Source of the DNA: Closterium sp. NIES-65
Taxonomy: Eukaryota; Streptophyta; Zygnematophyceae; Desmidiales; Closteriaceae
Direction of reading: 5' to 3'
Assembly: GCA_948144175.1 (NCBI GenBank)
Contig: CANXME010002096.1
Span: forward strand, 1,736,001 to 1,800,000
Length of the DNA stretch: 64,000 nt
Part shown: positions 15,494 through 57,860 of the stretch, one piece after another
Position numbering within the stretch: the first letter of the stretch is position 1
Layout: the number at the start of each line of letters is the position of its first letter
Program-made: the position numbers and the translations under genes
The notes under the pieces: model-generated
Seen by the model: only the letters and a program-made list of their open reading frames with translations
Database searches by the model: none
Told to the model about the DNA's origin: nothing

Positions 15494-18400
15494 ATGAATC
15501 CCGCACCGTTGGGTCGAGTCGCGAGCCGGCCGGCAGCGATAGGTCGCGTGGGGCGAATCCGGCTGCTGCTGGTGGCTCTGGGCGGCGCGATGATCCTCTC
15601 GGGCCTCCGATTCGTCAATCGCACGACGAACCTCGTCGCGCCTGCCAGCGACGAATTCGCGAACTTCACGAGTTTCGGCGAGCGATCACGCGAAGATTCT
15701 CCGCGGCCTGCATCGTCATCGCCAGTCGCGTCTTCTTTCCCCTCCTCCTCCACTAATATCCCTTCCGATACAAGCACATCTTCCTCATCATCATCTTCCT
15801 CGTCGTCGTCCTCCCCCACCTCGTTGCACAGCACGCCCTCGTTACAGTCACAACCAATCGCAGCCGTTCCACCCACTCCGATTAGCTCTCAACCAGATCA
15901 ATCCTCAGCCGTCCGATCACTAGAAAACGGCTCTCAAATCTCTGGAATTGCAGTCCGTCCCCCTCCGGCCAAAGATAATACACAAGAAGCTGATAGTAAC
16001 CCGAGTGGTAACCAGAGTGGTAACCAGGTGGACGCGACAGAGGACCCGGTATTGGCGCTGCAGCGAGCGGTGAAGCCCGAGGGGATTAAATGGTCGTTGC
16101 TCGCCGTCACGCCCACCCACGCGCGCGCCATGCAGGTGGGTGGAATTGTCTGTCTCACTATAAGGCGCCTCAGAACAATCCTGCTGTTTGGAAACTCTGT
16201 GCCGAGTATTGATTGCGTTGTCAAGTAAAGACGTGGCTGCTGCTGGCTGTCACGCCCAACCACGCGCGCGCCATGCAGGTGGGTGTGGTGCGAGGCTGAA
16301 ATCCCTTTTAGAGAATTCTCTAGACCCTCCACTGCAATCACCCATGCAGGTGGGTGCCGTGAACCTCCCACACCCTCCCCTCTCTTATTTTGAGTCGACT
16401 CAAAACCACACCCTCCCCTCTCTTCCCGCTCCGCGCGCCCCGTTCCACTCGAGCTGAAGATGAGATGAGAGACCACCTTCGCACGCCCACCACGTCCAAA
16501 GATGAGATGAGATGTACTTCTTTTGTCTCGCCGCCTCTCTCCCCCCCTCCGCCTCTCCCTTCCCCTTTCCCTTCATTCCCGTCCCCCCTTCCTCCCCCCC
16601 ACCACGTCCTCTACTTCATCCGCCTCCCGGCCTATCTGTGATCGCTGTGACCCTTGGTGTCCTTCCCAGGTGTAGCGAGGTTGTTTTTGAGACGTCTCAC
16701 TTTTGATCGACTCAAAAGAGACGTCTCAAAAACAACCTCGCTACACGTGACCCTTGGTGTCCTTCCCCCTTACCACTCCCCTCTCCCCTTCCGCTTCCCA
16801 GGTCGTTTACTTCATCCGCCTGGCTGCTTTTCTGCGCTCTGCGGGACCGCTGGTGTCCCTCGTCCCTTACCACTCCCCTCTCCCCTTCCACTCCCCCCCC
16901 CCCCCCCCGCTTCCCCTACCCCTCCTCCCTCTTTCTCCCCCCACCAGGTGGTTTACTTCATCCGCCTGGCCGCCTATCTGCGCTCGCTGGGTCCCTTGGT
17001 GCTCTGGATTGTCATAGAGGCGCCGCTTAAGGTACACTCCTTGTCGTGCGGTCACCCCTTTGACTGTTGAGTCGACTCAGCAGTCGCTCGCTGGGTCCCT
17101 TGGTGCTCTGGATTGTCATAGAGGCGCCGCTTAAGGTACACTCCTTGTCGTGCGGTCACCCCTTTGACTGTTGAGTCGACTCAGCAGTCGCTCGCTGGGT
17201 CCCTTGGTGCTCTGGATTGTCATAGAGGCGCCGCTTAAGGTACACTCCTTGTCGTGCGGTCACCCCTTTGACTGTTGAGTCGACTCAAAAGTCGCTCGCT
17301 GGGACCGCTGGTGCTCTGGATAGTCATAGAGGCGCCGCTTAAGGTACAGTCTTGCATCCGAACCGCGTTTTGAGTCGACTCAAAACGCGCCGCTTAAAGC
17401 CAGGGTCTCAAGTAAGCAAAGGAGCCATCAACCGCAAAGCAGTTGAAGCTAGGTTACCTAGTTAGTGCAGGCGAATTTCTGTTTGGTTGGGTTGGAAATC
17501 TACCCCCGTCAGTGCCTCAAAAGCAATTGCACAAGTTTTGAGTACGTGAGACTTTCGACGATTCTGGGGCACTTTAGGTTCGGATCCGAACCATATTTAC
17601 AAACCTGGAAGGTTCGGCTACACCTAGCGATTTGAATTTGTTTTTTACCCCTCGCTTCACCCCTCTTCAAACTTCACAATTCGCCAACCAATCACAAACA
17701 AACTTGCACTGTCAACTGCAAAACACTTGCAGTACGTGAGACCCTGGCTTTAAGGCGCAGTCCGCAGTACGACTCTGGGAGAAACGCTTAAAAACGCTTT
17801 TTTCAGATACAGTCCTCGATATGACCCTGGGGGAAACGCTTTTAGATTGTGTTTTGAGTCAATTCAGAACACTTTGAAGGCACTGTGTTTACTCTGAACT
17901 GATCCTTGGAAGAAAAACTTTGAAGGTGTTTCCAGACAAGCAAGGTGTGCAGTGCGGTGCCGCTCTTTTCGTGTGATGCTAAAGGTTAAAAGTAGCGTTC
18001 TTGTTGCTCCACCTCTCCATCCCTGTCGACTCCTGTCCACCCTCTCAACTCCCGTTTAGCCCTCTCCACCCCTCTCCACCCCTCTCCACCCTCCCTCATG
18101 CCTCCCTGGGAAGACAGAGGAGACGGCGGAGCTGCTGAAGCAGCACGCGGGGTCGTGCCTGCCAGCTGGCGACGCCAGCTGTCGGCGAATCAACTACGTC
18201 CACCTGGAGACCCGCCGGGTGAGAGGCGGTTGAGCTGCTATGATTCTGTTTGGTTCTGTTCTGTTCTGTTCTGTTCTTGGACATGTTGTTTCCTTGGAAG
18301 TGGGGGGGAGGGGAGGGAAGGAGGAGAAGGGGGGGTGCGGGGGCGGGCATGTACACACACGTTCCGTTTTTGTTGATAATATAATTTCAACCTCTTATAT

Positions 18401-20148
18401 CAATAACTTAATGCATCATCGTCATTGTTCCATTCCATTTTGTTCTTTTCCATTTTGTTCCGTTCCGCATTTCGTTCCATGCATCATCAGGTGAACATAT
18501 CCAATTGGAGCAAGGCAGTGCTGCAGCGGAACGCGTTGCTCTCGACTTGATTGTTGCTGCATGATCCCTAATGTTGCATAGACCATCACTGCGAGTTGTC
18601 TGTAGCACTTCATTTCACTGCATGCACTCACCATGCACCATCAGGTGGAGTCATCCAAGTGCAACAAGGCAGTGCTGCAGCGCCACCAACAGCATCCTCA
18701 TAGTCGTGATTACACAGTTGTGATCCTCATCCCTGCATGCATTTGAGATGAGACGTCTCAAAAGCAGCGCCGCAATCAGCATCCTCATAGTCGTGATTAC
18801 ACAGTTGTGATCCTCATCCCTGCATGCTCGACTATCATCATGCCATGCCATGCCATGCACCGCACGCACTCATCAGATGGAGACGTCCAAGTGGAACAAG
18901 GCGGTGCTGCAGCTTCGAAGCTTTCCACCATTTGATTCCATTCCATTCCATTCCTATCATCCTTTTACTGCATGCACTCACCATCAGATGGAGACGTCCA
19001 AGTGGAACAAGGCAGTGCTGCAGCATTGTCAACGATCTCCTGATGCTTCCATTCTCACATGCTCATCATTTAACTGTGTGCATGCATGCATCATCACCAT
19101 CCCATGCACCATTAGGTGGAGACGTCCAAGTGGAACAAGGCAGTGCTGCAGCGCAACACCGCGCTCGACTTCATTCAGGAGAGGCGCATTCAAGGCGTCG
19201 TTTACTTCATGGACGATGACAATGCGTACCTCCCTCAGGTGGGGTTGACTCGTAGTACTGCGAAGTGTGATCGTACTGCCACGTGTCTCAAGAGGAGAGG
19301 CGCATTCAGGGCGTCGTTTGCTTCATGGATGGTGACATTGCGTACCTTCCCCAGGTAGGACTGTACTGAGAAATGACTGTAATGCGCCGTGACTGCCATT
19401 TGAAGTGAGTGGCTGTTGCGGAGGTTTTTCACTCGTGTGTATTTTTCCGAGAATGACTACAAGCACATTAGAAATGTGATTACTTTCACCCTCCCCTGGT
19501 ACCGTCAATCTCTACTTATTGCTCAATGTTTCCTGTTTCGTTCCGTTTGTTGATAATTCAAGCTGAGAGTTCCATCGTTATTCTGCTGGCTGACTTATGT
19601 TCGGTTAAATGCTATTTGACCGCCCCTTTTTTTTCCGAGGACCCCTGCTCTTAAAGCTGCGGTCTACATGCTAAAATGGGTTTTGGGGGGTAATCTAGGT
19701 GCACACCCTTTCGCGTTTGTTGATTGAAGAGCGAATTGTTTTCTTTCCCAAAACACCTGTGCGAGGACTTCGCACCCCGCTGACGAGCGCAGTCAATTTC
19801 GTGAGTGAGTTCGCTTTGGGGGGCCCACATCCGCGGAAAGGCGAAGATTTCTGCGCAGAACACAAACAACCAAGCGGAAATTTCTGCGCCCATCCCCCTC
19901 CTTCCTTCCGCATCGATTGTTCGTTTCTCCGACGGGACAGTGCTACCCTGTTTTCAAGTGATAAACCAGGGCCTGTACCTCGAAGTATGTAGATCGCAGC
20001 TTCAACATTCCCTTCACGAATGTCTGTTCTACTCTTGTGTGTCTCGAGTCAAGTTCCTTACACAGCATCCAAAACGTTTGTCTCATGCCTTTTTCTATCA
20101 TTTTCTCATTGCTTTCCCACAGGCCCAGTTCTTTATCGAGTTCCAGAG

Positions 20149-20240
<92 letters not shown>

Positions 20241-24070: not shown

Positions 24071-25594
24071 TTAATGCTCACACGATCTAGGTTCACGCTG
24101 AATGGACGTCCGCGATTTTTTCTAGGCATCGCGAGACTAACTTCTTGAGGTGACGGCAGACAATTGCTGTTAAAGCTCGAAGCTGCTTCACCATTTTTCC
24201 TCAGCCATTCATCTGTATAGTGGGTTCAGTATTTGCTTAGGATATATCTGGCATGCGCCTGCCAGTCTGTATATGCCTTGGTGCTTTTTGTCTGTGCATA
24301 GTTATTTTACCCATGTTTGGCACTGCATCAATCAAGATTGCAGCTGAATGAAGTCTCTTAATGCCTCCATAGCTCGTACTATTGGTAAATGATACTGGCA
24401 AATCCTGATGCCCATCATACCGTATCAGGTTTTTGGCATATCTAATACCGGTAGAAAGTATTTTGCCACCTTCTAGTAGGATAATCTGGCAATAAATTCC
24501 ACACAGGTTGATCCAAATCCCCACATTTCAAACCAACCATCAGCCGCACCACAATTCTACCGTAATGTAAATAAGAAAAGGTCGCAGAATTTCCGTACTG
24601 AACCGTAGCGCACCGTATCACGTATTCTCCATTCCCCATCCCTCGGCTTTGCCAGATTCCCTCACCACCACCCCTCCCGCTTGTAAAGCGTATGTTATTC
24701 CTGAGCCTCCTATAATTCAGATTCTGCTTGAACCTTCTCATACACTGGCCGTATTGCACCAATCATCCCTCTGCACTTTTCGCGCTCAGGCCAGGTATAA
24801 TGCATTCGCGTACTTCGTCCTAGCTCTTGAGTCTCGCTGCTCGCGCACAAGCCCTGTGGGGCAAGCAACTTGAAATGGCCGCCATGGTAGCCGCACACTC
24901 TCCTTCCACAGTAATAGCTCCGTGGTGGTTTCGTTTGCACCGAGCTTCCCGTTCAACTGTGTTTCCAGGGTCATTCCCCCCCGTACCCACGAGTACTCCG
25001 CGATTTAAACCGATTTCTACCAATTTTTACCGGGAATTTCGTATTTACCGGAATCCACTGTATCTCCCAGCGGCGCAAACAGCTCGACAAGATGACATAT
25101 TCTTAGCTCCCTTATGGGCCATTTGGGTCTTGTTTCATGCGACGTCGTGCGACTTCGAGTAACTTCGTACGGCTTCATCCATGCAGCATGACATCACGGT
25201 CGCCACCCGAGGGCTCTGATTGGAGACTGACATTGGTCGCAAACATTTGTTAAGCACCAGATTACGGCGCTGGAACCACTTCTGAGGCGCCTCAAAAAAG
25301 TCGCCACTTGAGAGCTCCGATTTAAGACTGACATTGGTCGAAGGCAACTTATAAACACAGAACTACGGCGCTGGAACCAACTGTTACTAGACGCTTGCTT
25401 TGGCCAATGAATGCATTCTGAATCGCAGCGTGAGTTTCAAAGGGAGGGGGATTATTTTCTGGAGCAGGCTACGGAACGTCAGGAAAAGTGGACCGCGTCA
25501 GGAAGAAGACGGCGCAGCGTGAAGGCATTGTTCCCAAACGCAAGACGCATCGTCATCGGCGTCATTTCCGTTAACAAACGCGAGACGCGTCGTC
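24071..25594. other. intergenic stretch with a palindrome-separated duplication
   Basis: No gene seen. At 25199-25282 and 25301-25384 an 84-bp segment (starting GTCGCCAC, ending GCGCTGGAACCA) is present twice as diverged direct copies; the junction holds the palindrome GAGGCGCCTC at 25284-25293. The rest is ordinary, moderately AT-rich DNA likely to include the promoter of the next gene. Confidence 0.5.
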
Positions 25595-29685: not shown

Positions 29686-32600
29686 ATGGCGGCTGTGCAC
29701 CATTTCCTCTCTGCGATCCCTGGTTCCTCTAGGCGAATCGTCAGTCGCCACGTGTTTGACTTCGCAGCTCTCCGCCATTGTCAGCCAATCGGCGCGCGAA
29801 CCGCTACACGAGTCGCGAAGGCTCGACCTTTGAAATGCCTCGGGCAGGCGATTCGTTTCAAAGTGACCTCGTCGTTAGCGCAGGTCCGGGCAGCCGAAAA
29901 TACATCCTGTTCAGACGAGCTGACCGTACAGGTGTGTAGCACTGGCGGTTGCCGTATTCTGCTTGACACGTGGCAGTCGCGCGTTGCTAACGGCTCCTTT
30001 TCCGTTTTGTGTGGATCGTGTCGCCGTCCAATCCCGTTCACTCCGCCCAGGATGACACGTGGCAGGCGCTGAAGCGGCTCACATTGGGGGACTCCGCGGA
30101 GAGCTGCCCCGTAGAAGTGCGCGATGGGGGGAAGACTGGCGGAGGGCGGTAAGCATGGGGACGGGGAAGATGAGCGGAGGGCGGTAACTGTTTTTTTGGT
30201 TGCCCTGTGCGACTCAGGAATCGCCTATCGTGCGACTCCGCGGAGAGCTGCCCGGTAGAAGTGCGCGACGGGGGGGAAACGGGCGGAGGGCGGTAGGCTC
30301 GGGCGGGAAGGGGGGGAGACGGGCATGGGGCGGTAAGCTCGGGGGGGGAAGAGGGTTGTGGGGGGAAAGACGGGCGTGGGGCGGTAAGTGTATTCTGAGT
30401 CCCACGGCCATTTACTCAAAGGTTCTCAGAAGTCGTTGCCTCACTGGGGTGGGGGACGCCGCGGAGAGTTGCCCTGTTGACGTGCGCGATGGGGGGAAGA
30501 CTGGCGGAGGGCCGTAAGCATGGGGAGGGAGGGGAGGGGAAGGGGAGAGGGATGGGGAGAATGGAGGATGGGGGAAGACGGGCGGAGGACGGTAAACGTG
30601 GGCAGTGAGCAGTTGAATGAGCGGGCGAGGAGTGGGGGAGGGATGGGGAGAATGGAGGATGGGGGAAGACGGGCGGAGGACGGTAAACGTGGGCAGTGAG
30701 CAGTTGAATGAGCGGGCGAGGAGCGGGGGAGGGATGGGGAGAATGGATGATGGGGGAAGACGGGCGGAGGACGGTAAACGTGGGCAGTGAGCAGTTGAAT
30801 GAGCGGGCGAGGAGTGGGGGAGGGATGGGGAGAATGGAAAATCACCATTTTCTTCATTTTCTTCAGACCACCTCTTTGACCACCTCTTTGACCACCTCTT
30901 TGACCACCTCTTTGACCACCATTTTGACCACCTCTTTGACCACCATTTTGACCACCTATTTGACCACCACTTTGACCACCATCTTGACCACCTCTTTGAC
31001 CACCACTTTGACCACCATTTTGACCACCACTTTGACCACCATTTTGACCACCTCTTTGACAGCACCAAAGTGTTTTTGTTCCCGCCATTGTCTCGCTCTG
31101 CCTTACCCACAATCACCCCCCCACCTCTTGCCCCCACCCACTGCACTCCCCCTTCCACCTCATCGTATTCTTCTCTCTCTCCAACTCTCTTCTAGAGAGG
31201 GTGTTTTTGAGACGTCTACACCCTCCAAAAACACTCTCTAAAAACACTCTCCAAAAACACCCTCCAAAAACACCCTTCAAAAACACCCTCCAGAAACACC
31301 CTCCAAAAACACCTTCCAAAAACACCCTCCAAAAACACCCTCCAAAAACACCCTCCAAAAGCACCCTCTCTACACGTGCCTTCCACCTCATCATATTCTT
31401 CTCTCCAACTCTCCTTTTCCCCCTTCCCTCCGCTCCGCCCCCCTCCTTTCGTCTCCCCGCCATCCAATCGCTGTCTCTGTTCAACTACAGCGGCCTGTAC
31501 GCCACCCAGCCAATAGAGAAAGGACACGTGTTCCTCACTGTACACAGGGATCAGGTCAGCGTGTGTCTCTCTCTTGAGATTTCTCATAAGCCTCGTCTAC
31601 TTCCTCCACTCCCTCCGCTTCCTCCACCCCCTCCGCTTCCTCCACTCCCTCCACTTCCCAACGCCTCTGCTTTGTTTCTTCCAACTCAATCCATCGTTTC
31701 ATGACTACCACGAACATTGACGCCACTGTAACTGCTATTATTGCCCTTCTCGGTTCTATACCTCATGTCTTCTCTCTTCCTCCCCTACTTCTCTTCTCCT
31801 CCCATCCAAAATGGTCCTTTGTACAAGCCGTTGCCAAAAGCATGCACCCATCCCTGACCTCGCTTCTGTTCTCAATCCCCTTTATCCTCCCCCCATCTTC
31901 TTTCTTTTGCCGATAAATTGTTTGTAATACGCATTCACCGCCCCCGCCCTCCCAGTCACCCCTCTTTCCAATTACCCCCGCCCTCCCAATCACCTCATCA
32001 CCCGTCTTTCCAACAGATGATAACGGGTGACTCCCTTCCCCCACCCCTTGGGTCCCTCCTCCCTCCCTCACTCTCTGTGTGGGCCCGCATCGCCCTCTTC
32101 CTCCTCCTCCGCCCTTCCCCCTCCCATTCCGCCTCCCATTCCGCCCAACACCAACACCAACACCAACACCAAGACCAGCAACAAGAAGAACACGACAACA
32201 TCCACCACCAAGACCAGCACCACCAAGACCAGCACCACCAAGACCAACAACAAGAAGAACACGACAACATCCACCACCAAGACCAGCACCACCAACAACA
32301 GCACGAGCGCTGGCAGCCGTACATCTCATCGCTCCCGCCATTCAGGGCCGTTGATTCCACGGTCAGTGCTCTCAAGCATCATAACTTGGTTTTGAGTCGA
32401 CTCAAAACTCGACTCAAATCTTTTTAGTTGACTCAAAACTGGGCCGTTGATTTCACGGTCGGTCAGTGCTCTCAAACATCATAACCAGCACGGCCGTTGA
32501 TTCCAGCTTTGTGTGTGTGACCGTTGTTGAGTCGACCCAAACGTCTGAACATCGACCAACAACAGCACGAGCGCTGGCAGCCGTACATCTCATCGCCCTC

Positions 32601-35600
32601 CCTGCATCACAGCCGTTGATTCCACGGTCAGTGATCTTAAGCTGAACAGCTAGCCTTGTGTGACTGTTGAGTCAACAGCTCAACACATCTCTCCCCTTTT
32701 TTGAGACGTCTCGAAACAGCTAGCCCTGTGTGACTGTTGAGTCGCAAGGAGTTTTTGAGAATTCTCTCCCCTTTTCTCTCCTTCCACGAATGTCTATTCG
32801 GCGCCTTAGATACTCGTTTCTCCCCCTCCCAACATCCCCCTTTCCCCCCCCTCCTTTTATCCCTCCGCCAGGTCTGGTTAGGGGAGCACAAAGGGGGCCA
32901 TGCGTCTGGTCTATGCTTCTGGACTAAAAGCGTAGTGTTGAGTCGACTCATAAAAGGGCCATGCTTCTGGACTAAAAGCGTAGCGTTGAGTCGACTCATA
33001 AAAGGGCCATGCTTCTGGACTAAAAGCGTAGCGTTGAGTCGACTCATAAAAGGGCCATGCTTCTGGACTAAAAGCGTAGTGTTGAGTCGACTCATAAAAG
33101 GGCCATGCTTCTGGACTAAAAGCGTAGCGTTGAGTCGACTCATAAAAGGGCCATGCTTCTGGACTAAAAGCGTAGCGTTGAGTCGACTCATAAAAGGGCC
33201 ATGCTTCTGGACTAAAAGCGTAGCGTTGAGTCGACTCATAAAAGGGCCATGCTTCTGGACTAAAAGCGTAGTGTTGAGTCGACTCATAAAAGGGCCATGC
33301 TTCTGGACTAAAAGCGTAGCGTTGAGTCGACTCATAAAAGGGCCATGCTTCTGGACTAAAAGCGTAGCGTTGAGTCGACTCATAAAAGGGCCATGCTTCT
33401 GGACTAAAAGCGTAGCGTTGAGTCGACTCATAAAAGGGCCATGCTTCTGGACTAAAAGCGTAGTGTTGAGTCGACTCATAAAAGGGCCATGCTTCTGGAC
33501 TAAAAGCGTAGCGTTGAGTCGACTCATAAAAGGGCCATGCTTCTGGACTAAAAGCGTAGCGTTGAGTCGACTCATAAAAGGGCCATGCTTCTGGACTAAA
33601 AGCGTAGCGTTGAGTCGACTCATAAAAGGGCCATGCTTCTGGACTAAAAGCGTAGTGTTGAGTCGACTCATAAAAGGGCCATGCTTCTGGACTAAAAGCG
33701 TAGCGTTGAGTCGACTCATAAAAGGGCCATGCTTCTGGACTAAAAGCGTAGTGTTGAGTCGACTCATAAAAGGGCCATGCTTCTGGACTAAAAGCGTAGC
33801 GTTGAGTCGACTCATAAAAGGGCCATGCTTCTGGACTAAAAGCGTAGCGTTGAGTCGACTCATAAAAGGGCCATGCTTCTGGACTAAAAGCGTAGTGTTG
33901 AGTCGACTCATAAAAGGGCCATGCTTCTGGACTAAAAGCGTAGTGTTGAGTCGACTCATAAAAGGGCCATGCTTCTGGACTAAAAGCGTAGCGTTGAGTC
34001 GACTCATAAAAGGGCCATGCTTCTGGACTAAAAGCGTAGCGTTGAGTCGACTCATAAAAGGGCCATGCTTCTGGACTAAAAGCGTAGTGTTGAGTCGACT
34101 CATAAAAGGGCCATGCTTCTGGACTAAAAAGCGCCCTGAACATTTGTTTCTCCCCCTCTCAAAATATCACACCACCCCCTCCCCCCCCCCCGGTCCTTCC
34201 TCCCCCCTCCCCCCCTCCCGGTCCTTCCTCCCCCCTCCCCCCCCCCCCGGTCCTTCCTCCCCCCTCCCCCTTGATCAGGTGTGGTGGGGGCAGCACGAGA
34301 GGGCCATGCTGCTGCCCTCACTGTACAACGACACACGAGATTGCCTCAACTATTCCTCCTTTCTCCACCTCCCAACATACCTCCCCTACCCTCTCCCCAT
34401 CTACCAGGTGTGGTGGGGGCAGCACGAGAGGGCCATGCTGCTGCCATCGCTGTACAACGACACACAAGATCGGACGGCTCTTATTCAATCTGAGTTCGCC
34501 ACCATCCAATCGGTAACACACTGCCAATTGCCCTTGCTGGCTTGCCCTTTCTTGCTGGCTTGCCTTTCTTGCTGGCTTGCCCTTTCTTGCTGGCTTGCCC
34601 TTTCTTGCTGGCTTGCCCTTTCTTGCTGGCTTGCCCTTTCTTGCTGGCTTGCCCTTTCTTGCTGGCTTGCCCTTTCTTGCTGGCTTGCCCTTTCTTGCTG
34701 GCTTGCCCTTTCTTGCTGGCTTGCCCTTTCTTGCTGGCTTGCCCTTTCTTGCTGGCTTGCCCTTTCTTGCTGGCTTGCCCTTTCTTGCTGGCTTGCCCTT
34801 TCTTGCTGGCTTGCCCTTTCTTGCTGGCTTGCCCTTTCTTGCTGGCTTGCCCTTTCTTGCTTGCTTACCCTTTCTTGCTTGCTCATAATAGCATATCACT
34901 CACAGTTCTCTCCCTCCCCCCCCTTGCTGCCGCACTCTTTGCTGCCCTCCCTTTGCCCCCCCCCACGTATTGCCACCCCTTGCTAACCGTCCAACCTTTT
35001 GTTTTAGCTCGTGCACGCCTCCCCCCTCCCCTTCCCTCCTCCTCTTCTCCCTTTCTTGTCAGTTGAAGACAGGTGAGCTGCAAAGACCTTGAACTATCCT
35101 TCTCCCCTTTCCTCCTCTTCTCCCCTTTTCTCTCCCTATTCCCCCCTCCAGGCGACACCCATCACCCACACCTGCACTGTTCCCCGTTTCTCCCCCTCAT
35201 CATTCCACCATCCCTCCTCCTCTTCTCCCCTTCTCTCCTCCTATTCCCCCTCCAGGCTCTCACCCATCACCCACACCTGCATTCGTTCCTCCCGAACCTG
35301 ACCTACGACCAGTTCTGCCATGCCTACTCGCTAGGTACGGCATGTGATGCATTTACAGAACTAGTGCAGACTGGTGCAGGTGCAGAGTCAAACCTGCCTT
35401 GAATGGTGCAGGTGCAGAGTCAAACCTGCCTTGACTGGTGGAGGTGCAGCGTCAAGCCTGCCTTGACTGGTGCAGGTGCAGCGTCGAGCCTGCCTTGACT
35501 GGTGCAGGTGCAGCGTCAAGCCTGCCTTGACTGGTGGAGGTGCAGCGTCAAGCCTGCCTTGACTGGTGCAGGTGCAGCGTCGAGCCTGCCTTGACTGGTG

Positions 35601-41600: not shown

Positions 41601-44469
41601 CCACACCCTTCTCCACACCCTTCTCTACACCCTTCTCCACACCCTTCTCCACACCCTTCTCTACACCCTTCTCTACACCCTTCTCCACACCCTTCTCTAC
41701 ACCCTTCTCTACACCCTTCTCTACACCCTTGTCTATACCCTTCTCCACACCCTTCTCCACACCCTTCTCTACACCCTTCTCTACATCCTTCTCCACACCC
41801 TTCTCCACACCCTTCTCTACACCCTTCTCCACACCCTTCTCCACACCCTTCTCCACACCCTTCTCTACATCCTTCTCTACACCCTTCTCTACACCCTTCT
41901 CCACACCCTTCTCCACACCCTTCTCCACACCCTTCTCTACACCCTTCTCCACACCCTTCTCCACACCCTTCTCCACACCCTTCTCCACACCCTTCTCCAC
42001 ACCCTTCTCTACACCCTTCTCTACACCCTTCTCCACACCCTTCTCCACACCCTTCTCTACACCCTTCTCCACACCCTTCTCCACACCCTTCTCTACACCC
42101 TTCTCCACACCCTTCTCTACACCCTTCTCTACACCCTTCTCTACACCCTTCTCTACACCCTTCTCTATGCCCTGCTTGTAATTCCAACCCCAATCCTCAC
42201 TCGGACTCTTTGCCGTGCTACAACGAGGAGCAACAAGCAAATGAGGTACCTTCGTCGCCAGTTGAGGTACCTGTCTCCTGCTGCGTTGAAGTTCAGTTCT
42301 CCTGTTTCCTTGCAGCGCCTTGAAAATGCATTTAACGAGCCTCTCAACTCAAAGCTTAGCCCCCAGCACCCTTGCAGAGTAGAGCTGGATTCGAACCGCA
42401 GCAAGCCTTTAATGCATTTAACGGGCCTCTCAACTCAAAGCTAAGCCCCCACCCCAGCACCCATTCTCGTGCACTCCTCCCTGTAGTTTCCATCCATCCT
42501 CTCCCAAACTATTCTTTTGCTCTGTGGCCTCTTTCCCTCTTTTCAAATCATAGCTGACCCGCTCCTGAAAGTTTTTTTTTCCCCGATTTGTTTTTTCCAT
42601 CCTGCCCACTGCCCTTTTTCCAGATCATTGCTGACCGGGACTACGAACCAGGGGAGCAGGTGATAAGCGGTGCAGGTGATAAGGGGAGCAGGTGATAAGC
42701 GGTGCAGGTGATAAGGGGAGCAGGTGATAAGCGGTGCAGGTGATAAGGGGAGCAGGTGATAAGTGGTGCAGGTGATAAGGAGAGCAGGTGATAAGCGGTG
42801 CAGGTGATAAGGGGAGCAGGTGATAAGCGGTGCAGGTGATAAGGGGAGCAGGTGATAAGCGGCGCAGGTGATAAGGGGAGCAGGTGATAGGCAGGCGGTG
42901 CAGGTTATTATTAGATCATGTGCAGTTCAAATGTATGATGTGGTGATAGTTACGTTGCCTCTTTACTGTTGTTATGAAGTTTCTGAATTGTCCACTGCTA
43001 TCGGTCTTGTGAAATGAGGGTGTTTGTGAGACGTCTCATTGCTATCATATTACGTGTCCATTGCTATCTGTCTGGACCTGTCTGGACCTGTCTGGACCGT
43101 GAATCACATGCTTCTCACCCTTGATGTCTTTCCTTCACTTTGTGCCTTCTCCTGCCCTCCGCCCTCCCACATCTCTCCCCCGCCATCCGCATCCCCCTCT
43201 CCCTCCCCCTCTCCTTCCCCCTCTCCTCCCCCCTCCCCATGACCCCTCATACCACGCAGGTGCGAGTGAGCTATGGCGATCTCTCCAGCGGTGTGCTGGC
43301 TTTTGACTCAGAGCAGCCCCCCTTTTGAGGCGCCTCAAAAGCTTTTGACTCAGAGCAGCCCCCCACCCCTTCTTTTCCGTCCCGCCTCCGCACTCCCCCT
43401 CCCGTGCCCCATCACCCCCCCTCATCCCACCCAGGTGTTAGTGAGCTACGGAGATCTCTCCAGTGGTGTGTTGGCGCTTGACTTTGGCTTCACTGTGCCT
43501 GACAACCCGCACGACTCTGTGAGTGCCGCACGACTCTGTGAGCGAGCGGGGCGTGACCCTTCCCTGCTGTCACCTGTCCAGTCGATTCAAAAATCTCCAG
43601 TGGTGAGCTGGCGGTGGACTTTTGGCTTCACTGTGCCTGACAACCCGCATGATTCGGTGAGTGGGGCATGACTGTGTGAGTGGGGCATGACTGTGTGAGT
43701 GGGGCATTGCTCTGCTGGTGGAGGGGGCCTTCTGGGGGAGGGGCCTTTTTGGGGAGGGGCCTTCTTGGGGAGGGGCCTTCTGGGGGAGGCGCAGCTGCTG
43801 CCTTTTGACCCGCCTTGCCTCAGGATACTCTTAGCACCTTGTATGGCCTTGGCACACCCTCCTTGGCACACCCTCCTTGGCACACCCTCCTTGGCACACC
43901 CTCCTTGGCACACCCTCCTTGGCACACCCTCCTTGGCACACCCTCCTTGGCACGTGGAGCTGTGTGTGCTTATAACGAGCAGCAGCAACCCCCGTGACGC
44001 ACCTCTCAATGTGCCCAAGAGGTGGCTTCTGGGGGAGGCACAGCTGCTGCCTCATGCCATCCTCTTCCTCCTCCTCCCCCCCATTCCCTCGCCCTCGTTC
44101 CCAAGCAGGTGGAGCTGTGTGTGCTTGTAGCCAGCAGCACCACCCCCCACGACACACAGTTCAACGAGGCCAAGAGGCGCCTTCTGGGGGAGGCGCAGCT
44201 GCTGCCGTGTGACTCTGCCAGAGGCGCCTGCTTTGTGCTCAAGTGAGTGCGAGTGTGAGTGCGAGTTTGAGTGTGAGTGTGAGTGTGATTATGAGTGTGA
44301 GTGTGATTATGAGTGTGAGTGTGATTATGAGTGCGAGTTTGAGTGTGAGTGTAGTTATGAGTGAGTGACTGAGTGCAAGCGTGTGTGTGGCCGCGGTTGT
44401 GACTGTGAGTGCGAGTCCAAGGGAGTGTGTCAGGATGGCCGAGTTGGTCTAAGGCGCCAGTTTCAGGTA

Positions 44470-44501
<32 letters not shown>

Positions 44502-44529
44502 TCCTGACATTGTAGCCCAGACCTTTTGT

Positions 44530-44560
<31 letters not shown>

Positions 44561-47500: not shown

Positions 47501-50500
47501 GCTTGCATTCGTGGCGCCTGCCGAACAGCCGCCACCGGTTTTTGAGCGCGCCGATGGTCCGCTCAACGACCATGCGAGTTGCCGACTGCACTTTGTTGAA
47601 GCTCTGCTCCCATCTCTTCATTAACCGCTTCCTTGGTGCATGCAGTGGCGTAAGACAGTAATCCCGCAAAGGGTAGGCAGCGTCCCCCACCAACTGGTAT
47701 GGAGCGATTTCACCACTTTCAAGTCTGCCGTATAGTGCCGACTGCGTGAATACGCATTGGTCATGGTTTGAGCCAGGGTTGCCAACGTTGTAATCCCAAA
47801 TCAGGCCCCGCACATCGCATGTCACCTGTAGTTGGACAGAGTAATGAGACTTTCGGTTGTAATATTCCTGTCTGTGCCCCTCCATCCCGCGGACTTGAAT
47901 ATGGGTGCCATCTATGGCCCCAATGACGTTAGGGACTCCCTTCACATCTCTGAAATCTGCAGCCATAGCTGGCCTGGCTTCTGGTGGGGGAAACCTGACC
48001 CACTCACGTTTGAAACGACGTGGGAAGTGCATTAGGAAAGCATCAACTAGTCGATGGAGTAGCGATTTAGGGATGCCAAATGTCACAGCCATGTCTACGT
48101 AGGTTAGCCCCGAGGCGAAGTACTTGATAGGAATAAGAACACACAGTTCAATAGGGATGTCATGACGCTCCACAAAGTAGGATAAGGGACCTTGCATGGC
48201 TGCAGTGATGTACGTCAGGATGTCGCGTGTTATGCGGAAAACGTCTTGAAACTCCACGTCGGTCATGATGCGGATATCCTCCTGCCACTCGCGGATGCGT
48301 GTTCTTCGGCGCTTCCGGCGAACAACACGGCGCTGCTGTGCTAGACGCGCAGCTTCCTCGTCGACGTGGACAACCCTGGTATGATTGTCTCTCAAGTTTA
48401 GACACTCTTCGCTGGCTCTACCTACCATGGGCAACCACACTAGTATGTAATAGGCACACCAGAGAAGCATGACGGCTAGAAGCGCTGCCGAGACTTTAGG
48501 GTCCATGTTCCTAACTTTCTGATGAAACCAGCTAGGCTTCTTGTTTCCGAGGCACTTATGTTTGGCAATTTATTTTGGTGAAAAAGGGATTCTTGGCCGT
48601 GGGCCTGGACATGTTAGGAGACGTGCAAGAGTGGCTGTTTCGTGTGCATCGACTATGATAGTGAGGATTTTGCGCAGCTATCGTTCAGTCGGTGCTGGTG
48701 CTGATGTTAGGACGTGGTGACGGTCGTGGGGATATCCGAACGTGTGAAATGTCGGTTGGTTGGAATTGGCGGTCAACAATCTGTCGTGCAGATGGTCGCA
48801 CTGGTTGGGTTTGGTTTGATGTGCAGGTCGCCGGTACATCGCCCAATGTTGCACACATTGACACAAAGCTGGAGCCGCACCCACGCGCGGCTCCAGTTGG
48901 GGGCAAGCGAATTTCCCGCTTGCCCCCAACAGTACCTTGCCACCAGCGGGGGATACGACCTGAGTGTGCGGGAGTGTGAGTGCGAGTGGAGTGCGTGTGA
49001 GTGTGAGTGCAAGTGGATTGAGTGTGAGTGTGAGTGCGAGTGGATTGAGTGTGAGTGTGAGTGCGAGTGGATTGAGTGTGAGTGTGAGTGTGCAGGATTG
49101 ACTGCCAGTCATAGGATGCCTGCATGGAGATTTTCCCCTCTTCTGCCTGCATTCAGCTCAAGTGAGTGATTTTTGCGTATTTTAAAAAATTATAAAATAA
49201 CTCCAAAGCATTTTCAAGAGTGGTTGCGTGCATTTGGCCCAGGTGAGGAGTGACTGAAGCAGAAACCGTCAGTCGTGTCGAACAAAATGTCTCATCCGGT
49301 GGAGGTGCGGCTGTTGCCTTGCCAAGTGAGGTTGAGTGAGTGAGTGAGTGAGTGGGCGAGTAAGCAAGTGAGGGAGAGAATAAGTGAGCGGTGAGTGAGT
49401 GTTAGTTTTTTTACTTGTGCCCTGTGACTATTCCGCTGGTGCCTCCTTCATGCTCAAGTGAGAGAGTGAGTGTGAGTGCGAGTGTAAGTGTCTAAGATGT
49501 CGTTTCGCAGTTCGGACACCAGCGAGGGTTCCCCTTTTCACTACGCTTTCAGGAGTATACTTCGGGTTTCTTCCGACTTTGTGAAACACTACTGATTGGC
49601 CACGTTCACCAACATAACTGGGGACAAAACCAATTGACCAATTGATTTGAAACAATGTTCCACTTGCATCTTCAGAATACCCTGGTTCAACCATCTGTAT
49701 GTGCAATGCAAGTGTTTATTTGGGTAAGTGTTGGAAAAGCCGTCCGGGTCAGATGCTGTAGGGTAAGAAGGTGCAAGCCATTAATGTCCGAACTTCGCTT
49801 GGTGTCCGAACTTCGGAACGAGCTCTAAGAACGGAGTTGCCCGCCTGCGCTTGTGTATGAAGAAGTGTTTTGAGACGTCTCAAAACGAGCTCTAAGAACG
49901 GAGTTGCCCGCCTGCGCTCGTGTATGAAGAAGTGTTTTGAGACATTTCAAAACCAGCTCTAACAATGGAGTTGCCCGCCTGCGCTCGTGTATGAAGAAGT
50001 GTTTTGAGACGTGTCAAAACGAGCTTTAAGAACGGAGTTGCCCGCCTGCGCTCGTGTATGAAGAAGTGTTTTGAGACGTCTCAAAACGCTTGCCCGCCTG
50101 CGCTCGTGTATGAAGAACTGTTTTGAGACGTCTCAAAACGAGCTCTAAGAACGGAGTTGCCCGCCTACGCTGGTGTATGAAGAAGTGTTTTGAGACGCCT
50201 CAAAACGAGCTCTAAGAACGGAGTTGCCCGCCTGCGCTCGTGTATGAAGAAGTATTTTGAGACGTCTCAAAACGAGCTCTAACAACGGAGTTGCCCGCCT
50301 GCGCTCGTGTATGAAGAAGTGTTTTGAGACGTATCAAAACGAGCTCTAAGAACGGAGTTGCCCGCCTGCGCTCCTTTAATAAAGTAGTGTTTTGAGACGT
50401 CTCAAAACGCGCTCTAAGAACAGAGTTGCCCGCCTGCGCTCATGCATGAAAAAGTGTTTTGAGACGTGTCAAAACGAGCTCTAAGAACGGAGTTGCCCGC

Positions 50501-53500
50501 CTGCGCTCGTGTATGAAGAAGTGTTTTGAGACGTCTCAAAACGCGCTCTAAGAACGGAGTTGCCCGCCTGCGCTCGTGTATGAAGAAGTGTTTTGAGACG
50601 CCTCAAAACGAGCTCTAAGAACTGAGTTGCCCGCCTGCGCTCCCACCCTCAGGCTCCATCGCGACTCCGCTAGTGTCGGTGCCTCCTTTGAGCACAAGTG
50701 AATGTGTGCTTGGAAGGAATTTACCTTGCGACTTTTGAGACGTCTCAAAATTCCTTTGAGCACAGGTGAATGTGTACTCGGAAGGAGTTTATTTTGTGAG
50801 TCTGACAGTGGCCCGCCTGCCCTCCCACCCACTTCTCCTTCCTCCCACCCACCCACTAGGCGCATCGACTCGCCCGCATCGGATGGCAGGGGCTTGCCCT
50901 TCGCGCTGCGAGCCATGGCACGAATCCTCACAGCCAGCAGCGAGGAGCAGGTGAGCAGTGATAATAGCCATGTAACCAGTGGGTTAGCATGTAACCGTTG
51001 CACCACGGCGCAGCAGCCGATGGGGGCTTGCCCTTCACGCTGCAAGCCATGGCACGGTGTCTCACAGCTGCCAGCGAGGAGCAGGTGAGCAGCAACGGGT
51101 TACCACATGATTGCCAGCGGGTTACCGGATTGTTGCCATGTAACGGTTACACCACGGTGCAGCATAAGATGGCAGCGGGTGAGCAGCTGCCAGCGACGAG
51201 CGGGTGAGTACCCAGGGGTTACCAGCAGGTACACGACATGGCACCACGGTGCAACCAGTTACCAGCAGGTACACGACATGGCACCACGGTGCAACCAGTT
51301 ACCAGCAGGTACACGACATGGCACCACGGTGCAACCAGTTACCAGCAGGTACACGACATGGCACCACGGTGCAACCAGTTACCAGCAGGTACACGACATG
51401 GCACCACGGTGCAACCAGTTACCAGCAGGTACACGACATGGCACCACGGTGCAACCAGTTACCAGCAGGTACACGACATGGCACCATGGTGCAACCAGTT
51501 ACCAGCAGGTACACGACATGGCACCACGGTGCAACCAGTTACCAGCAGGTACACGACATGGCACCACGGTGCAACCAGTTACCAGCAGGTACACGACATG
51601 GCACCACGGTGCAACCAGTTACCAGCAGGTACACGACATGGCACCACGGTGCAACCAGTTACCTTTTGAGATGTCTCAAAACCTGGTGAGTATTCTTGGT
51701 GCTTATTAGTGATCAATGAGAAGGCGTGTTTGCCCTTTGTGTTCAAGGCGTGTAGCAAGAGTCCACACGGCCTGCAGTGATGGTGGTGCCTGCCACGTCA
51801 GATCGAGCACAAAGGTACGCCTGGATTTTCTTCTGAGAAATCTCAAAGGTGGATTACATTAAAGCGTTTTCACGGGTAACTGCCACTCCATTTCAAGTTG
51901 GCTTCTGAAAGTCTCTCAAAAACCTGCTTGCCTCTTGAGAATGCTCAAAAGCATTTCAGGCAACGTTTGCTTTGGATTCGACTCAATTTCAGGCAACCTC
52001 ACAGCGAAGGCAATTGCCATTCCACGTCAAGCCCTGTCCTTCCCTTTCAACCCCACGCTCCCCTTCCACCCCCTCCTCTCCCCATCGCGGATCTCTGCTG
52101 TCTCCTGCAGTGTGGCAATTTCTGAGGCGCCTAAAGTATCCCCCCACGCTCCCTCCTTCCGCCCCGTCCTCTCCCCATCCCCGCCATCCGCTTTCTCCCT
52201 CAGCTGCAATTCCTGCGAGAAGAGGGGCGGCAGCACAGCGGCACGGTCGGGAGACGGCCAATCAGATCGCAGGGAGGGGACGGAGGGGGAAGAGAGGGAT
52301 GGGGGAGAGGAGGAGGGGGAGGGGGAGGAGGGGAGGAGGTAGCTGGGGTGGAGGGCTGGGAGGGCAGGGCGATGGAGCTGCTGTTGTTGCTGGTGGAAGA
52401 GAGGGTTGAGCACTTGATGGGTGCACGACAGGTGAGATCTGATGAGTTTGTAGGGGTGCAGGTGCACGACAGGTGAGAGGTAGAAAGAGCACAGGGTGTG
52501 CGTGGCATGTGAGTGCTGATGCTTGGAAATCAGGGCAGGGCGACGGAGCTGCTGTTATCACTGGTGGAAGAGAGGATAGAGCACTTGATGGGTGCACGAC
52601 AGGTGACACAGGAGGGCTGCATGGCAGTGATAGGTGGAGAGAGCATGGGGTGTGTGTGTGTGTGTGGCATGTGTGGAGTAGCAGAATCTTGGGTGCTGAT
52701 GCTGGGAGGGCAGGGCGATGGAGGTGTTGCTGTTGCTGGTGGAAGTGAGGGCCGAGCACTTGATGGGTGCACGACAGGTGAGACCTGACGAGTTTGTAGG
52801 GGTGCAGGTGCACGGAAGAATGGCAGGATGATGGATCTGCTGTTATCGCTGGTGGAAGAAAGAACAGAGCACTTGATGGGTGCACGACAGGTGAGAGGTG
52901 GCGAGAGCACAGGGTGTGTGTGGCATGTGTGTGGGATGGCAGAATATTGCGTGCTGATGCTTGGAAGGCAGGGCGATGGGGCTGTTGCTGTTGCTGGTGG
53001 AAAGAGAGGATAGAGCACCTGATGGGTGCACGACAGGTGAGACATGATGGGTGCATAGGGTGCTGAGGGGTGCACAAGGGTGCACAAGGGTGCATGGAAG
53101 AACGGCGTAAATTGGTGGAGCCAAGCACGATGATGATGGATGGCAGGGCTGTTTCGTGGCTGCTGCTGTTGCTGGTGCGAGAGCGAGCAGAGCAGCTCAT
53201 GGGTGCATTCGGCAGGAATGGAATGCAATTTGATGCCTAAAGAAAAAAACATTCGAACCATAACGTTGCACTATCACATTCACTCCCGCCATTACTGGAA
53301 GATCAAATCACCAATACCGCACATTATGAGAAAAAGGGTATTTGTACATATGTGTTGTTGCAGGATGTGAAGAATTTGGCATCCCAAGTGGACGAAAGCA
53401 GGCTAGCGACGGCTATGCGGATCATAGACAGCCATTTGGCAGTCTTGCGTTCTGTAGCGGCATGGTTGAGGCCTCGGGCCTCTGGGGGTGGTTTAGAGCG

Positions 53501-53549: not shown

Positions 53550-55209
53550 GACGGGCTTTCAACATTCCTGGCTTCGTTTAATTAGATCTACCATGTTGTG
53601 GTAGGGAATGCTTTTAGCGTTCAATGTAAGGCTATGAAGTGGAGAATGTACCTGAAGGGAGCATACTATATGAGGTATGCATTTCTCGTAGATTTCGAGC
53701 AGCCAAATTTGAGCCGAAACATCCCCCCAGGGGCACCCCTATTGGCTCCCTCCCTCCGCCCACCCCCGCCCACCCCCGCCCACCCCCGCCCACCCCCGCC
53801 CACCCCCGCCCACCCCCGCCCACCCCCGCCCCCCCCCGCCCACCCCCGCCCACCCCCGCCCCCCCCCGCCCACCCCCGCCCCACCCCCCTTCCCTCTTCC
53901 CACACGCCCCCGCGCCTCCCCGTCCGCCAAAAGTGACTCTTTGGGGTGAGGGAAGGAATTCCTCTTTCGCCCAGGAAGTGGGGAAGGTTCCATTGTTGTC
54001 GGTGCCATCCTTCTTCGGGATGGACGGACAAGATTCACTCGGAAACTGCGAGGCACCAAATCTCATGTGTGACAGGGGAAGGTAAATCTGCGGGATGCCT
54101 TCCTTCTTTAGCTCTTCGCTGTTCCTAGAGCGGATCCTCCTATTCCCCTCGATCAAATTGGTTCACAACGATATTGTGCAATCCAAAGCGATGTTCTTCT
54201 TTACCGCTTTGAACCGTTACCAACCTGAACATTGTTGTATGAGCTGTAAGCCAACTACGGCTGACCCGCCCTTATCTTCTCATACACCATGCTCCCTAGG
54301 TCGCGTCGCGTCGCCGCCTCCCCCCCTCCCTCCTCTTCCCCCTGCCTTGACGTAACTCAGTTTGGAATTTTCTTGCTGCGTTGCACACAACTCAGTAACG
54401 TCTATAGGAGGAAAATGTAGAATCATTCATTCCGCGAAGCATGAGGCAGCAAGCATTCCACGACGACGCGATGCGACGGTGGCGTGGCGCGTGGTCGGAG
54501 GTTCGTCGGCGCGTGCTGCCAGCGAGGTTCAACTTGAAAAGGAGCGAAAGAAGCGAGGGCAGGAGGATAGGACGGGTTCATTTGTCCGCACGCAGGTCCT
54601 CCTCATTCGTTGATGCTTTGAAATCCAGCATGCGGCTTCTGCTCCGACCGAAGTGCCTGTCACGGCACCTGCGCATATATCACGCACCATCACACCACAC
54701 ACCTGAGAAACGTACAGCACCCAGCACGACACAGCACACTCCACATCCCCGCTCGTCCACCCCCTCCGTTCAACGCAAGCGCGAACGCGAACAGGCATGT
54801 CAATACACATCAGATCAAACATCCTGATGAGATGACCCACGCGATGACTGACTCATCAGTGTGTGCGGACACCTCTTAGTACAGATTGTCGTAGAGCCAC
54901 CGAATGTCGGCACGCGTGTTCAGTTCAGAGCGATACTGTACAGTGCGTTACAGTTTCATCTCTTCAAGAAAGAAATCAAAGCTTCTTTGAGAAGCCAGCA
55001 TAATACTGTACTGCTCCTATTGCTGCTATCGCACCTATTTTTAAGCCTGTTCCGCTACACGCAAAAAAAAACATACTTACTATCCAGTGCGCCGCTAAAG
55101 CTCTGAGCTCCCTCACAACACCCTCAACCCGTCCGACTTTAGCAACGGTAGCCGTTGCGACTTCGGCGACCATCGTCTGAATCGCTGCGACATTATCGCG
55201 ACGACCATC
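53550..55209. other. intergenic between SET and DOMON genes
   Basis: No gene recognised. Contains a (CCCCCGCCCAC)n-type array at 53757-53885, which produces false Pro/His or Gly/Trp/Ala frames on both strands. The 5' part should hold the SET 3' untranslated region and the 3' part the DOMON gene promoter. Confidence 0.45.
53757..53885. repeat. CCCACCCCCGC tandem repeat
   Basis: About 12 copies of an 11-bp C-rich unit. Confidence 0.93.
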
Positions 55210-57172
55210 ATGGCTGTGTCCGTCTCGACGGCGCCGCTCCCCGCGCTCCCGGCGCTCATGCTCCTCCTCGCGAGCCTCTTCGCGGCGCACCTCGCGCCTC
55301 GCGCGGCAGCTGAACGGCCCTTCCCCGCTGTAGTAACATCTGCTGAGCTCAGCTCCTCTGCGGAGTCCGCGGCGCCCGTTACAAGCACGTCGTCGTTTGT
55401 CACGCACGTGCGCAGGCAGCTGCTGTTCGAACGGTACAGCTGCGGCCGCTCGCCGCTCAAGGGGTACACGTCGTCGAAGCGCCTCGCCTCTGGGTGAGCA
55501 ATCTATTCTAGGGGCGCCTCACAAATGGACTCCTCCGGCGGTTTATCTGTAGGTAGAACTGCGGCCACTGCTAGCGACTTGCCTCAAGGGGTGCTACCCC
55601 AAATTTATTCGGCGGAATTACTCAGTAATGTCTTATGGAAGCGACTCCCCTCTGGTTGTGAACGGCCGCAGTTACTAGCGGCTAGTCTTAAAAGCAGATT
55701 CTTGCCGCGTCGACTCAAGTCCCCTCCCTGTACACGGGCCTGTTTTTTAGTCGACTCAAAAGCATGTACGAGCGGTCCTCCTTGACACGCAGTTCACATA
55801 GCCGACGTGGCTTTCCTCTAGGACACACCTGACTGATTCCTCTTGCATCCGACTCTAACTCACCTTGTACACCTGGCATGGCACGCACACGCATTTTTAA
55901 CGTCTCCCCAAACCTCTCTCTTTTCCTTCAGCCTCGCTCTCCTCTGGAAGGCCACAAGCGGGCGCACAATGGAAGTTGCTGTCTGGGATGGGAGGAGGGG
56001 GGGAAGGTGTCGGGGGGGGTGGGGGGGGGGGAGAGGGGGGGGGGAGGGGCCGGGGGGGGAAGGGGAGGTAGCCGTGGGTGTTTTTGAAGGGCTCAAGAAA
56101 TAACGTTTTGTTCCCCATCCCGTTTTTGTCCCCCATCGTATCTCCCTTCTCCCCGTCCAGCCTCGTTCTCCACTGGAAGGCCACGAGCGGGCGCAAGATC
56201 AAGGCCGCTGTGGTGGCCTCAGGAGCGGCTGCAGGGGGGTGGTTCGCAGTGGGGTGGTCTCCCAAGGGGAAGATGGACGGCAGCAACGCGGTTGCCATGG
56301 AGGATAGCAACAACCCTCCTGGCGTGTACGATCTTGAAGGGACCTCCGCTGCGAACGCTGCGTCGTGGACCGTCGGATCGCCGTCGATCTCGAGTGCTGG
56401 TGGCAAGGTCACGATGAAGTGAGTGCTTTCTTTTTCGGGTGGTGGGTGTTGGGTGCTCAGCGCAGGAGTGGGTGCTGTGGGTGGGGTGGCTAGCCACGAG
56501 GTGGTTCAGTAGTGGGGTGTTGGGTGCTCAACGCAGGAGTGGTTGCTGTGGGTGGGGTGGCTAGCAGTGGGATGGTGCGGCAGGGAGGGGGGTGGATTGC
56601 AATGGTCACTCAGGGGTCACATGGACGGCCGCAATGATGGTGCTGTGGAGTTAGCGAGTAGGCCCCCCTCCCAACTCTCTCCAACCCCCACCCACCCTCC
56701 TCCACCCCCCACCTTAAAATGACCTTTGAGTGGACGCCGCAGACGTTGTTACCAAAGGGCAGTCAAGGATGTGTTTATCGCTTCAGTTTATTTCTCATTG
56801 CCGAGTCTGGGTTACTCCTTCTGTGGTGTTGTATGTTGGGAATGCAGGTTCATCAAGAACAAGGGGGATGGTGCGTCTGTGAAGGTGAAAGCTAATGGCA
56901 ACAACAACATTGTATGGGCGTATGGCGATGGCACTGCAGTTTCCACACACACCAACCGGTAAGCAGCTCCTCACCTTGCCGTGCGGCCCACTGTGTGCAC
57001 AGCGAGTATTCTTTTGCATACTGTAATTGTTCCTGCATCTTGAACAGCTCGTAAATATTGTTACTGTTTACACATAAGTTTAGCTTCCCGTCCCTTCTTG
57101 GTGGCCCTTGTGTGCAGTGGGAACGCGGTTGTGAATTTTGCATGTGGGTGCCCTCTTTTCAGAAACTGCTGA
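55210..57172 (+). CDS. secreted DOMON-domain protein (AIR12-like, putative b-type haem protein)
   Basis: Exons 55210-55493, 56161-56418, 56848-56958, 57118-57172; phases agree and give 235 residues. N-terminal signal peptide, about residues 1-38 (ALPALMLLLASLFAAHLAPR and following AAA cleavage context). DOMON domain from about 95 to 225: LVLHWKATSGRKIKAAVV, GGWFAVGWSPKGKMDGSNAV, VYDLEGTSAANAASW, IVWAYGDGTAVSTHTNRGNA. In haem-binding DOMON proteins a Met (here in KGKMDGSNAV) and a His (here in STHTNR) are the axial ligands; both are seen. It ends shortly after the domain (FACGCPLFRNC) with no cytochrome b561 part and no clear GPI signal, so a soluble apoplastic electron carrier is inferred. 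Truncated copies of exon 2 occur in introns 1 and 2. Confidence 0.9.
55930..55995 (+). repeat. truncated copy of DOMON exon 2 start
   Basis: TTCAG acceptor plus coding for LALLWKATSGRTM, similar to the real exon 2 start at 56161. Followed by a G-rich run. A second, internal piece of exon 2 (GGTGGATTGCAATGGTCACT and ATGGACGGCCGCAA) is recognisable at about 56587-56640. Confidence 0.85.
56433..56600. repeat. duplicated intron segment after DOMON exon 2
   Basis: GGGGTGTTGGGTGCTCAGCG then CAGGAGTGGTGCTGTGGG and GTGGGGTGGCTAGC occurs twice in tandem (about 56440-56493 and 56513-56566). Confidence 0.88.
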
Positions 57173-57819: not shown

Positions 57820-57860
57820 ACAAGGGAAACTCTACTCCTTTTTCAAGATCATTACAAGAC

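Follow-up and report, generated by a model that had tools for sequence, protein, structure and literature searches.

What are the short palindromes of the form TTTTGAG-NNNN-CTCAAAA that recur along a stretch of Closterium sp. NIES-65 DNA, and why do so many of them lie between two direct copies of one sequence? The stretch (contig CANXME010002096.1, positions 1,736,001 to 1,800,000; 64,000 nucleotides in all, hereafter the window) comes from a streptophyte alga, and its first-pass annotation had offered two options, a palindromic insert that duplicates its target or the scar of a repair or template-switch reaction. Both fit the paralogous empty sites and the junction features described below, and the Closterium inserts look like mobile DNA that is too small for the known classes. 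We lean toward the view that these scattered palindromes are copies of tiny mobile inserts, made from templated tails that annealed at staggered breaks. Each insert has an 18-bp core, P, of the form given above, and arms, S, that lie outside P and follow a family sequence outward; X denotes the direct copies on either side of a palindrome.

The genome-wide motif search that the first-pass annotation had proposed covered 874 Mb in 2400 contigs and returned 30,327 exact matches to the core motif against 4 for the reversed control, arrays and duplicate contigs included. Because the assembly retains near-identical duplicates of some regions (C1755, C1658 and C347), the genome-wide counts are inflated; contig C1755 is a near-duplicate of parts of the window region (97-99.5% identity), and an identical 401-bp stretch is common to C6, C1658 and C347. 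Allowing no more than one mismatch, TTTTGAGNNNNCTCAAAA has 26 matches within the window, as compared with none in 100 shuffles. Between positions 16388 and 55760, where more than 40 palindromes had been annotated, 59 GAGNNNNCTC sites start, against 13 for the inverted control CTCNNNNGAG, and the centre is variable but self-complementary, as described, in 49 of the 59, every one of these being TCGA, ACGT, GCGC or AATT. The figure of more than 40 holds for sites as such but not for independent ones, which are fewer than 40 because 36 of the 59 sit within three tandem arrays (25, 8 and 3). None had been noticed in the retrotransposons, and one site with a family centre (3713, GCGC) lies in the copia-holding stretches 1-14000 and 57786-64000. 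The dense sample of 264 kb, consisting of the window and 20 stretches picked around listed genome-wide motif matches, holds 65 exact copies (25 TCGA, 20 ACGT, 11 GCGC, 2 AATT and 7 others). These dense loci overstate the average density, since eight position-chosen stretches (40 kb, all from the window's own contig) contain one clear family palindrome (L145:672, flanked by copies of about 12 bp by eye) and one decayed array (L146).

Direct copies beside the palindromes were sought automatically in the 264-kb sample (score of at least 14, gap of at most 40, tandem arrays masked). X was detected at 33 of 51 perfect cores, at 21 of 83 cores with one or two mismatches and at 99 of 2000 random positions. 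Among the 33, four palindromes belong to a single L015 cluster and two lie in L009. With a tighter gap, X stands beside 29 of 54 family palindromes and beside 1 of 62 other perfect palindromes, and the idea that duplications are drawn to palindromes in general was rejected on that count. The 33 cases have X lengths of 16-97 bp (median 58) at 76-100% identity, and no conserved motif was recognized by eye at their X ends. Two earlier scans, with arrays unmasked and a score of at least 20, pointed in the same direction (98/134 versus 137/600, and 56/134 versus 119/1340). The flanked inserts of the window, in window coordinates and with no strand assigned, are as follows.

16368..16386, left X copy of the insert at 16387 (right copy 16406-16424)
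16387..16405, insert A plus TTTTGAGTCGACTCAAAA, TCGA family; X on both sides, 19 bp, 100% identity
18677..18740, 64-bp X on the left, repeated on the right at 18764-18827 with 95% identity
18741..18763, ACGT-core insert between these copies
25279..25299, GCGC-core insert; X copies of 80 bp at 25199-25278 and 25300-25379, 78%
32386..32440, compound insert with two TCGA-type cores; X copies at 32345-32385 and 32441-32485, 87%
32674..32714, insert with ACGT core carrying one mismatch; X 32645-32673 and 32715-32743, 97%
43299..43322, 24-bp X on the left, repeated identically on the right at 43341-43364
43323..43340, TTTTGAGGCGCCTCAAAA as an insert of just 18 bp, present in contig C1755 too
50732..50751, ACGT-core insert; X copies at 50684-50731 and 50752-50799, 85%

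Three of the annotated duplications came with both positions or a quoted sequence, and two of these three stand up base by base. The 50-bp copies at 18691-18740 and 18778-18827 agree base by base (50/50), flanking copies were found around 32390 (87%), 32703 (97%) and 50733 (85%), and the GCTTTTGACTCAGAGCAGCC noted on either side of 43323-43340 proved to be part of the perfect 24-bp X at 43299-43322 and 43341-43364, a true X that the automatic test fails to detect. The 84-bp copies placed at 25199 and 25301 match at 22 of 84 positions in that register, and the duplication is real in the correct one, at 80 bp and 78%. The palindrome at 43323 lies in the first of two similar exon-like segments in tandem (43280-43460), where it places TGA after TTT in a frame reading AFDSEQPP (by eye).

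An indication of how the insert and the duplication are related comes from paralogous sites. At L012:8974, a 20-bp X lies on both sides of AGGTGACTTTTGAGTCGACTCAAAAG, and the L008 paralogue (72% over 217 bp) has one X and no palindrome. At L011:9302, identical 60-bp X copies surround ACTTTTGAGTCGACTCAAAAGTC, and three downstream paralogous exons have one X (by eye). The exon-like segment concerned (L011:9240-9999 and L012:1-230) is present in at least four tandem repeats, one of which is broken by the palindrome with its 60-bp duplication. Paralogues with one X and no palindrome at two loci suggest that insert and duplication most simply arose together, an order of events that rests on parsimony because the paralogues are diverged. 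We see only a slim chance for the opposite order, in which the palindromes came first and the adjoining duplications are later minisatellite growth: several palindromes do lie within tandem arrays, but X-P-X also occurs around single palindromes, the paralogues with one X lack the palindrome, and other palindromes go unflanked (the 1 of 62 given above). Further empty sites were sought and set aside. Direct repeats bound the stretch of some 155 bp that contains the sole extra palindrome of C1755, L158:2539, which makes its loss from the window by deletion just as likely; L013 gave identical contigs and short matches alone, the alignment of L008:2531 with L013 was too poor for judgement, and L009:7043, which is within an array, was left uncounted. 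L008:1-2285 is itself repeated sequence, found at 90-94% in four of the eight position-chosen stretches of C1798 (L143, L148, L149 and L150).

If the core is constant, what of the arms? In the TCGA family the arms read outward as GTCACCTCG, CTCGACTCA or CACGGCTCA, and across the window and the 20 stretches AAAAGTCACC is found 12 times and always follows a core, counting a decayed core in L015 and a half-core that belongs to a tandem unit (L020:4049). In the ACGT family the arm is a 12-nt variable stretch followed by a CACGTG outer end: the pattern GAGACGTCTCAAAAN{8,15}CACGTG has 1313 genome matches against none for the control, and of the 100 matches listed, 96 have exactly 12 nt between CTCAAAA and CACGTG. 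Position 7 is T in all 51 distinct arms listed and position 6 is C in 46, and two arms differ on average at 6.2 of the 12 positions among these 51, or at 5.5 among all 96 listed. Within a locus, by comparison, the two arms differ at 0, 1, 0, 2, 0 and 0 of 12 (mean 0.5) in the six palindromes whose 12-nt stretch is readable in both arms, C277:535138/535160 being taken from the listing alone; palindromes with a short second arm (L018:7381 and L021:2830) were excluded from the six, and their readable arms agree by eye. As arms are alike within a locus and unlike between loci, both arms of a copy seem to derive from one arm at insertion. Arm lengths in 23 TCGA palindromes range from 5 to 17 nt, and once reach 30 nt; the two sides are unequal in 15 of the 23, and left and right lengths are weakly correlated (r 0.34).

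These arms bear on two further explanations. The first is a palindromic miniature inverted-repeat transposable element (MITE) of minute size, whose whole double-stranded palindrome of 36-54 bp would be moved by a transposase or integrase, with exonucleases trimming its ends before joining. We regard this as rather unlikely. It would account for the defined CACGTG outer end, for the 54-bp copies in which both arms are complete, one of which, an ACGT palindrome, sits inside a TCGA palindrome and has a short duplication (contig C229, about 16 bp by eye). The target duplications are long and variable, however, at 16-97 bp; arms that are about half different between loci and matching within a locus make each copy seem remade from one arm; shortened inserts keep the adjoining X on both sides; and head-to-tail S'-P polymers, described below, would not be predicted. 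The second is an assembly, linker or cloning artefact, which appears very unlikely, its chance being close to negligible. The centres form common six-cutter restriction sites, a point in its favor, but the X copies are diverged, down to 76% identity, the arms have family structure, the family is on many contigs, and C1755 and the window, 97-99.5% identical, have in common the insert at 43323 and the inserts at 49.8-50.75 kb.

The junctions between insert and target were scored in 13 TCGA palindromes. Among their 26 junctions, 18 have an inserted part that follows the arm sequence, and the 8 deviating ones were excluded; microhomology at the 18 averages 1.06 nt, compared with 0.39 in 5000 shuffles of the target ends (P = 0.0006). 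Half-sites, i.e., a centre and one arm without the other, are rare: the 264-kb sample has 6 among 167, and a strict TCGA pattern picks out 5 in the whole genome. Three of these five are in one array of C1842, one is among full palindromes of C1642, and the fifth is L155. A single-ended progenitor was rejected on the strength of this small number, and no source gene was recognized. The C1842 array (L152-L154) has a 109-bp unit in which TCGA palindromes alternate with a broken second core, and successive units change their spacer from GTGAC to GTCAC or back.

At some loci the insert is a head-to-tail polymer with one recurrent junction. The polymer 34-mer TTTTGAGTCGACTCAAAAGTCACCTCGTTTTGAG has 137 exact matches against none for the control, with places listed on 21 contigs. 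Spacer orientation is constant at nine polymer loci (C43, C84 with allele C1617, C947, C287, C741, C2227 with allele C1701, C1677, C1642 and C277), a tally that excludes multi-core loci with other spacers. C43, C287 and C1677 show one orientation change at an end, by eye, each time from S' to S and never from S to S'; for C43, where the fetched sequence covers both ends, the 26 repeats listed from the interior share one direction. C277 has three additional bases at every joint, and its array extends to the edge of the fetched stretch, with X outside view. Polymers too are flanked by X, which is identical on the two sides at C43 (49 bp), L175 (40 bp), L151 (41 bp) and L178 (31 bp), and diverged at L173 (29 bp, 97%) and L165 (25 bp, 88%); at L159 it is about 35 bp by eye, where the script, misled by an older upstream palindrome, gave 12 bp. 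An S'-P unit with two recurrent ends suggests that a discrete template is copied end to end. Taken with the junction microhomology and the unequal truncation of the arms, the end-to-end polymers point to joining of a repair-like or retroposition-like kind.

How might such inserts be made? The reading to which we lean would start from a double-strand break with two nicks about 16-97 bp apart. Both 3' ends would be extended along a short template, beginning at microhomology in arm S' and stopping at a fixed end past P; the self-complementary P tails would anneal, and fill-in and sealing would give X-S'-P-S-X. Jumps from template to template, end to end, would give X-(S'-P)n-S-X polymers, and later unequal exchange could turn X-P-X into minisatellites. 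Because P pairs with itself, any two break ends bearing P-ended tails could be joined, and this assumption would explain why the centre stays constant, why the two arms are shortened to different lengths, why half-sites are few, why arms match within a locus and why the order runs from S' to S. The template may be a hairpin RNA of about 27 nt in the TCGA family or 36 nt in the ACGT family, copied by reverse transcriptase or a telomerase-like enzyme; in a close variant, an end-joining polymerase would copy existing genomic copies. In its most specific form, which we put forward tentatively and with less than even confidence, the element would be a minimal retroposon, in which hairpin RNAs of about 27-36 nt (a TTTTGAG/CTCAAAA stem, a four-base self-complementary loop and a single-stranded arm S) are copied onto both 3' ends of staggered breaks, with template jumping, and the self-complementary core serves as glue.

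A related possibility gives the sequence no machinery of its own: the host's end-joining polymerase would use genomic palindromes as filler in repair, their self-complementary tails suiting any ends. We think this has a modest chance of being right. End joining at protruding ends is described as yielding tandem duplications, microhomology and occasional templated inserts (PMC5730883), and microhomology is present at the TCGA-family junctions here. A defined arm end and one polymer junction on 21 contigs (places listed) point instead to a discrete template, and copying from a genomic donor would be expected to enter the donor's flanks at times.

Several observations weigh against templated tails annealed at staggered breaks. 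The analysis turned up no gene or RNA that would serve as template and no enzyme, transcripts and candidate enzymes not having been examined. X is missing by the automatic test at 18 of the 51 perfect cores, and most of the sampled loci were selected for palindrome density. The correlation of r 0.34 leaves independent truncation of the arms unproved; 4 of 46 arms, at 5-6 nt, are shorter than P; and selection on a TGAG-NNNN-CTCA core makes inserts cut inside the core invisible in the arm-length count. End joining that used ready-made DNA could also account for the microhomology. The half-site L155 stands alone, about 300 bp from a full palindrome. In the L172 polymer, X is 32 bp at 91%, with its right copy starting 47 bp past the last core. 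Finally, alleles C2227 and C1701 have 7 and 8 cores; as they differ by one unit, polymer lengths change after insertion, and long polymers may be later growth.

Known systems were compared with these inserts feature by feature. Telomerase repair of breaks and twin-primed retroposition appear the most alike in working. Interstitial telomeric sequences at breaks (PMC2246262) are described as short templated repeats with microhomology at the break, sometimes target duplications, and empty orthologous sites; microhomology between break and repeat is likewise seen at the 18 junctions scored here. The Closterium unit differs in being palindromic, about 27 or 36 nt long, very numerous, usually accompanied by long duplications, and not known as a telomere repeat. 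In the twin-primed model of long interspersed elements (LINEs), two target 3' ends prime on one RNA, the cDNAs anneal and target duplications result, and template jumping is known from elements related to LINEs (PMC2912911). Variable target duplications, as in LINEs and short interspersed elements, are found in Closterium; the constant 3' end and truncation at the other end alone are not, for both sides are shortened and the constant part is central. Moreover, no insert beyond hairpin units and their polymers was recognized, and no parent element or enzyme was identified.

Like MITEs and other DNA transposons, the inserts have an inverted-repeat structure, with a defined end in the ACGT family (CACGTG). 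Target duplications of MITEs and DNA transposons are short and of fixed length, whereas those in Closterium are long and variable (16-97 bp), and instead of two intact ends the arms are unequal in 15 of 23 palindromes, with X adjacent in the listed cases. Tandem duplications at protruding-end breaks are alike in deriving the duplicated segment from the overhang and in their occasional inserts; no recurrent insert is described for them in the part of the source consulted (PMC5730883), unlike in Closterium, where one motif accounts for all 30,327 matches. The palindromic repeats of Volvox organelles are also short, also from a green alga, and thought to be selfish (PMC2670323). They proliferate in organelle DNA and are called nuclear-inert in that paper, the main text of which does not contain the words "target" and "duplication"; in Closterium, nuclear copies are very numerous and in many cases target-duplicating, those of the window lying next to copia and Harbinger genes on a contig of 3.2 Mb.

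No description of such inserts was met in the titles or abstract openings that searches of open-licence literature brought up. The main text of the Closterium genome paper, which reports assemblies of 438-975 Mb for the Closterium peracerosum-strigosum-littorale complex, has no occurrence of "palindrom" (PMC10407611). TTTTGAGTCGACTCAAAA had no match in viral contigs, and a viral origin was ruled against on this result, the TCGA centre alone having been searched. Prokaryote genomes gave scattered matches in at least 118 stretches, with one site apiece among the 80 listed.

Other palindromes of the window stand in arrays or lack a detected outer X.

16689..16727, ACGT palindrome split by a decayed TCGA palindrome, with GAGACGTCTC on both sides as a 10-bp duplication
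16981..17348, three family palindromes within 3.5 copies of a 104-bp tandem unit
17368..17385, TCGA palindrome at which the automatic test detects no X
32913..34129, 25 TGAGTCGACTCA cores in a tandem array of about 25 units of 48 bp
49817..50642, ACGT palindromes and arms of the CACTTCTTCATACAC type in a tandem array of 67-bp units
51664..51681, ACGT-type palindrome that closes a 40-bp array, its centre mutated to ATGT

The outer arms of the palindrome at 16689..16727 match one another, and the automatic test gives no outer X. Elsewhere in the window, two copia elements (3072-9983 and 57786-62999) are nearly palindrome-free; one is in several separate frames and the other has a 1737-aa open frame. 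A Harbinger-type pair occupies 45569-48569, with a DDE_Tnp_4 transposase on the minus strand (47220-48569), the first 26 of whose 87 protein matches are all from Closterium, and a convergent 555-aa open frame that has no Pfam match. A 5.4-kb array at 36709-42165, of about 455 copies of the 12-bp unit CCACACCCTTCT, is almost free of G on the plus strand (GC skew -0.99 over 38-42 kb).

If the reading to which we lean is true, Closterium carries a nuclear mobile sequence of 18-54 bp with long target duplications, no coding capacity and no recognizable transposon class. Each copy would record one break and its repair, and many breaks, with the lengths of their overhangs, would be readable from one genome. 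For some of the minisatellites and duplicated exons of this alga, a relative of land plants, the inserts would also supply a concrete origin. Should the more tentative version hold, a minimal retroposon would spread as a universal repair adaptor, seeding minisatellites and exon duplications in a streptophyte genome.

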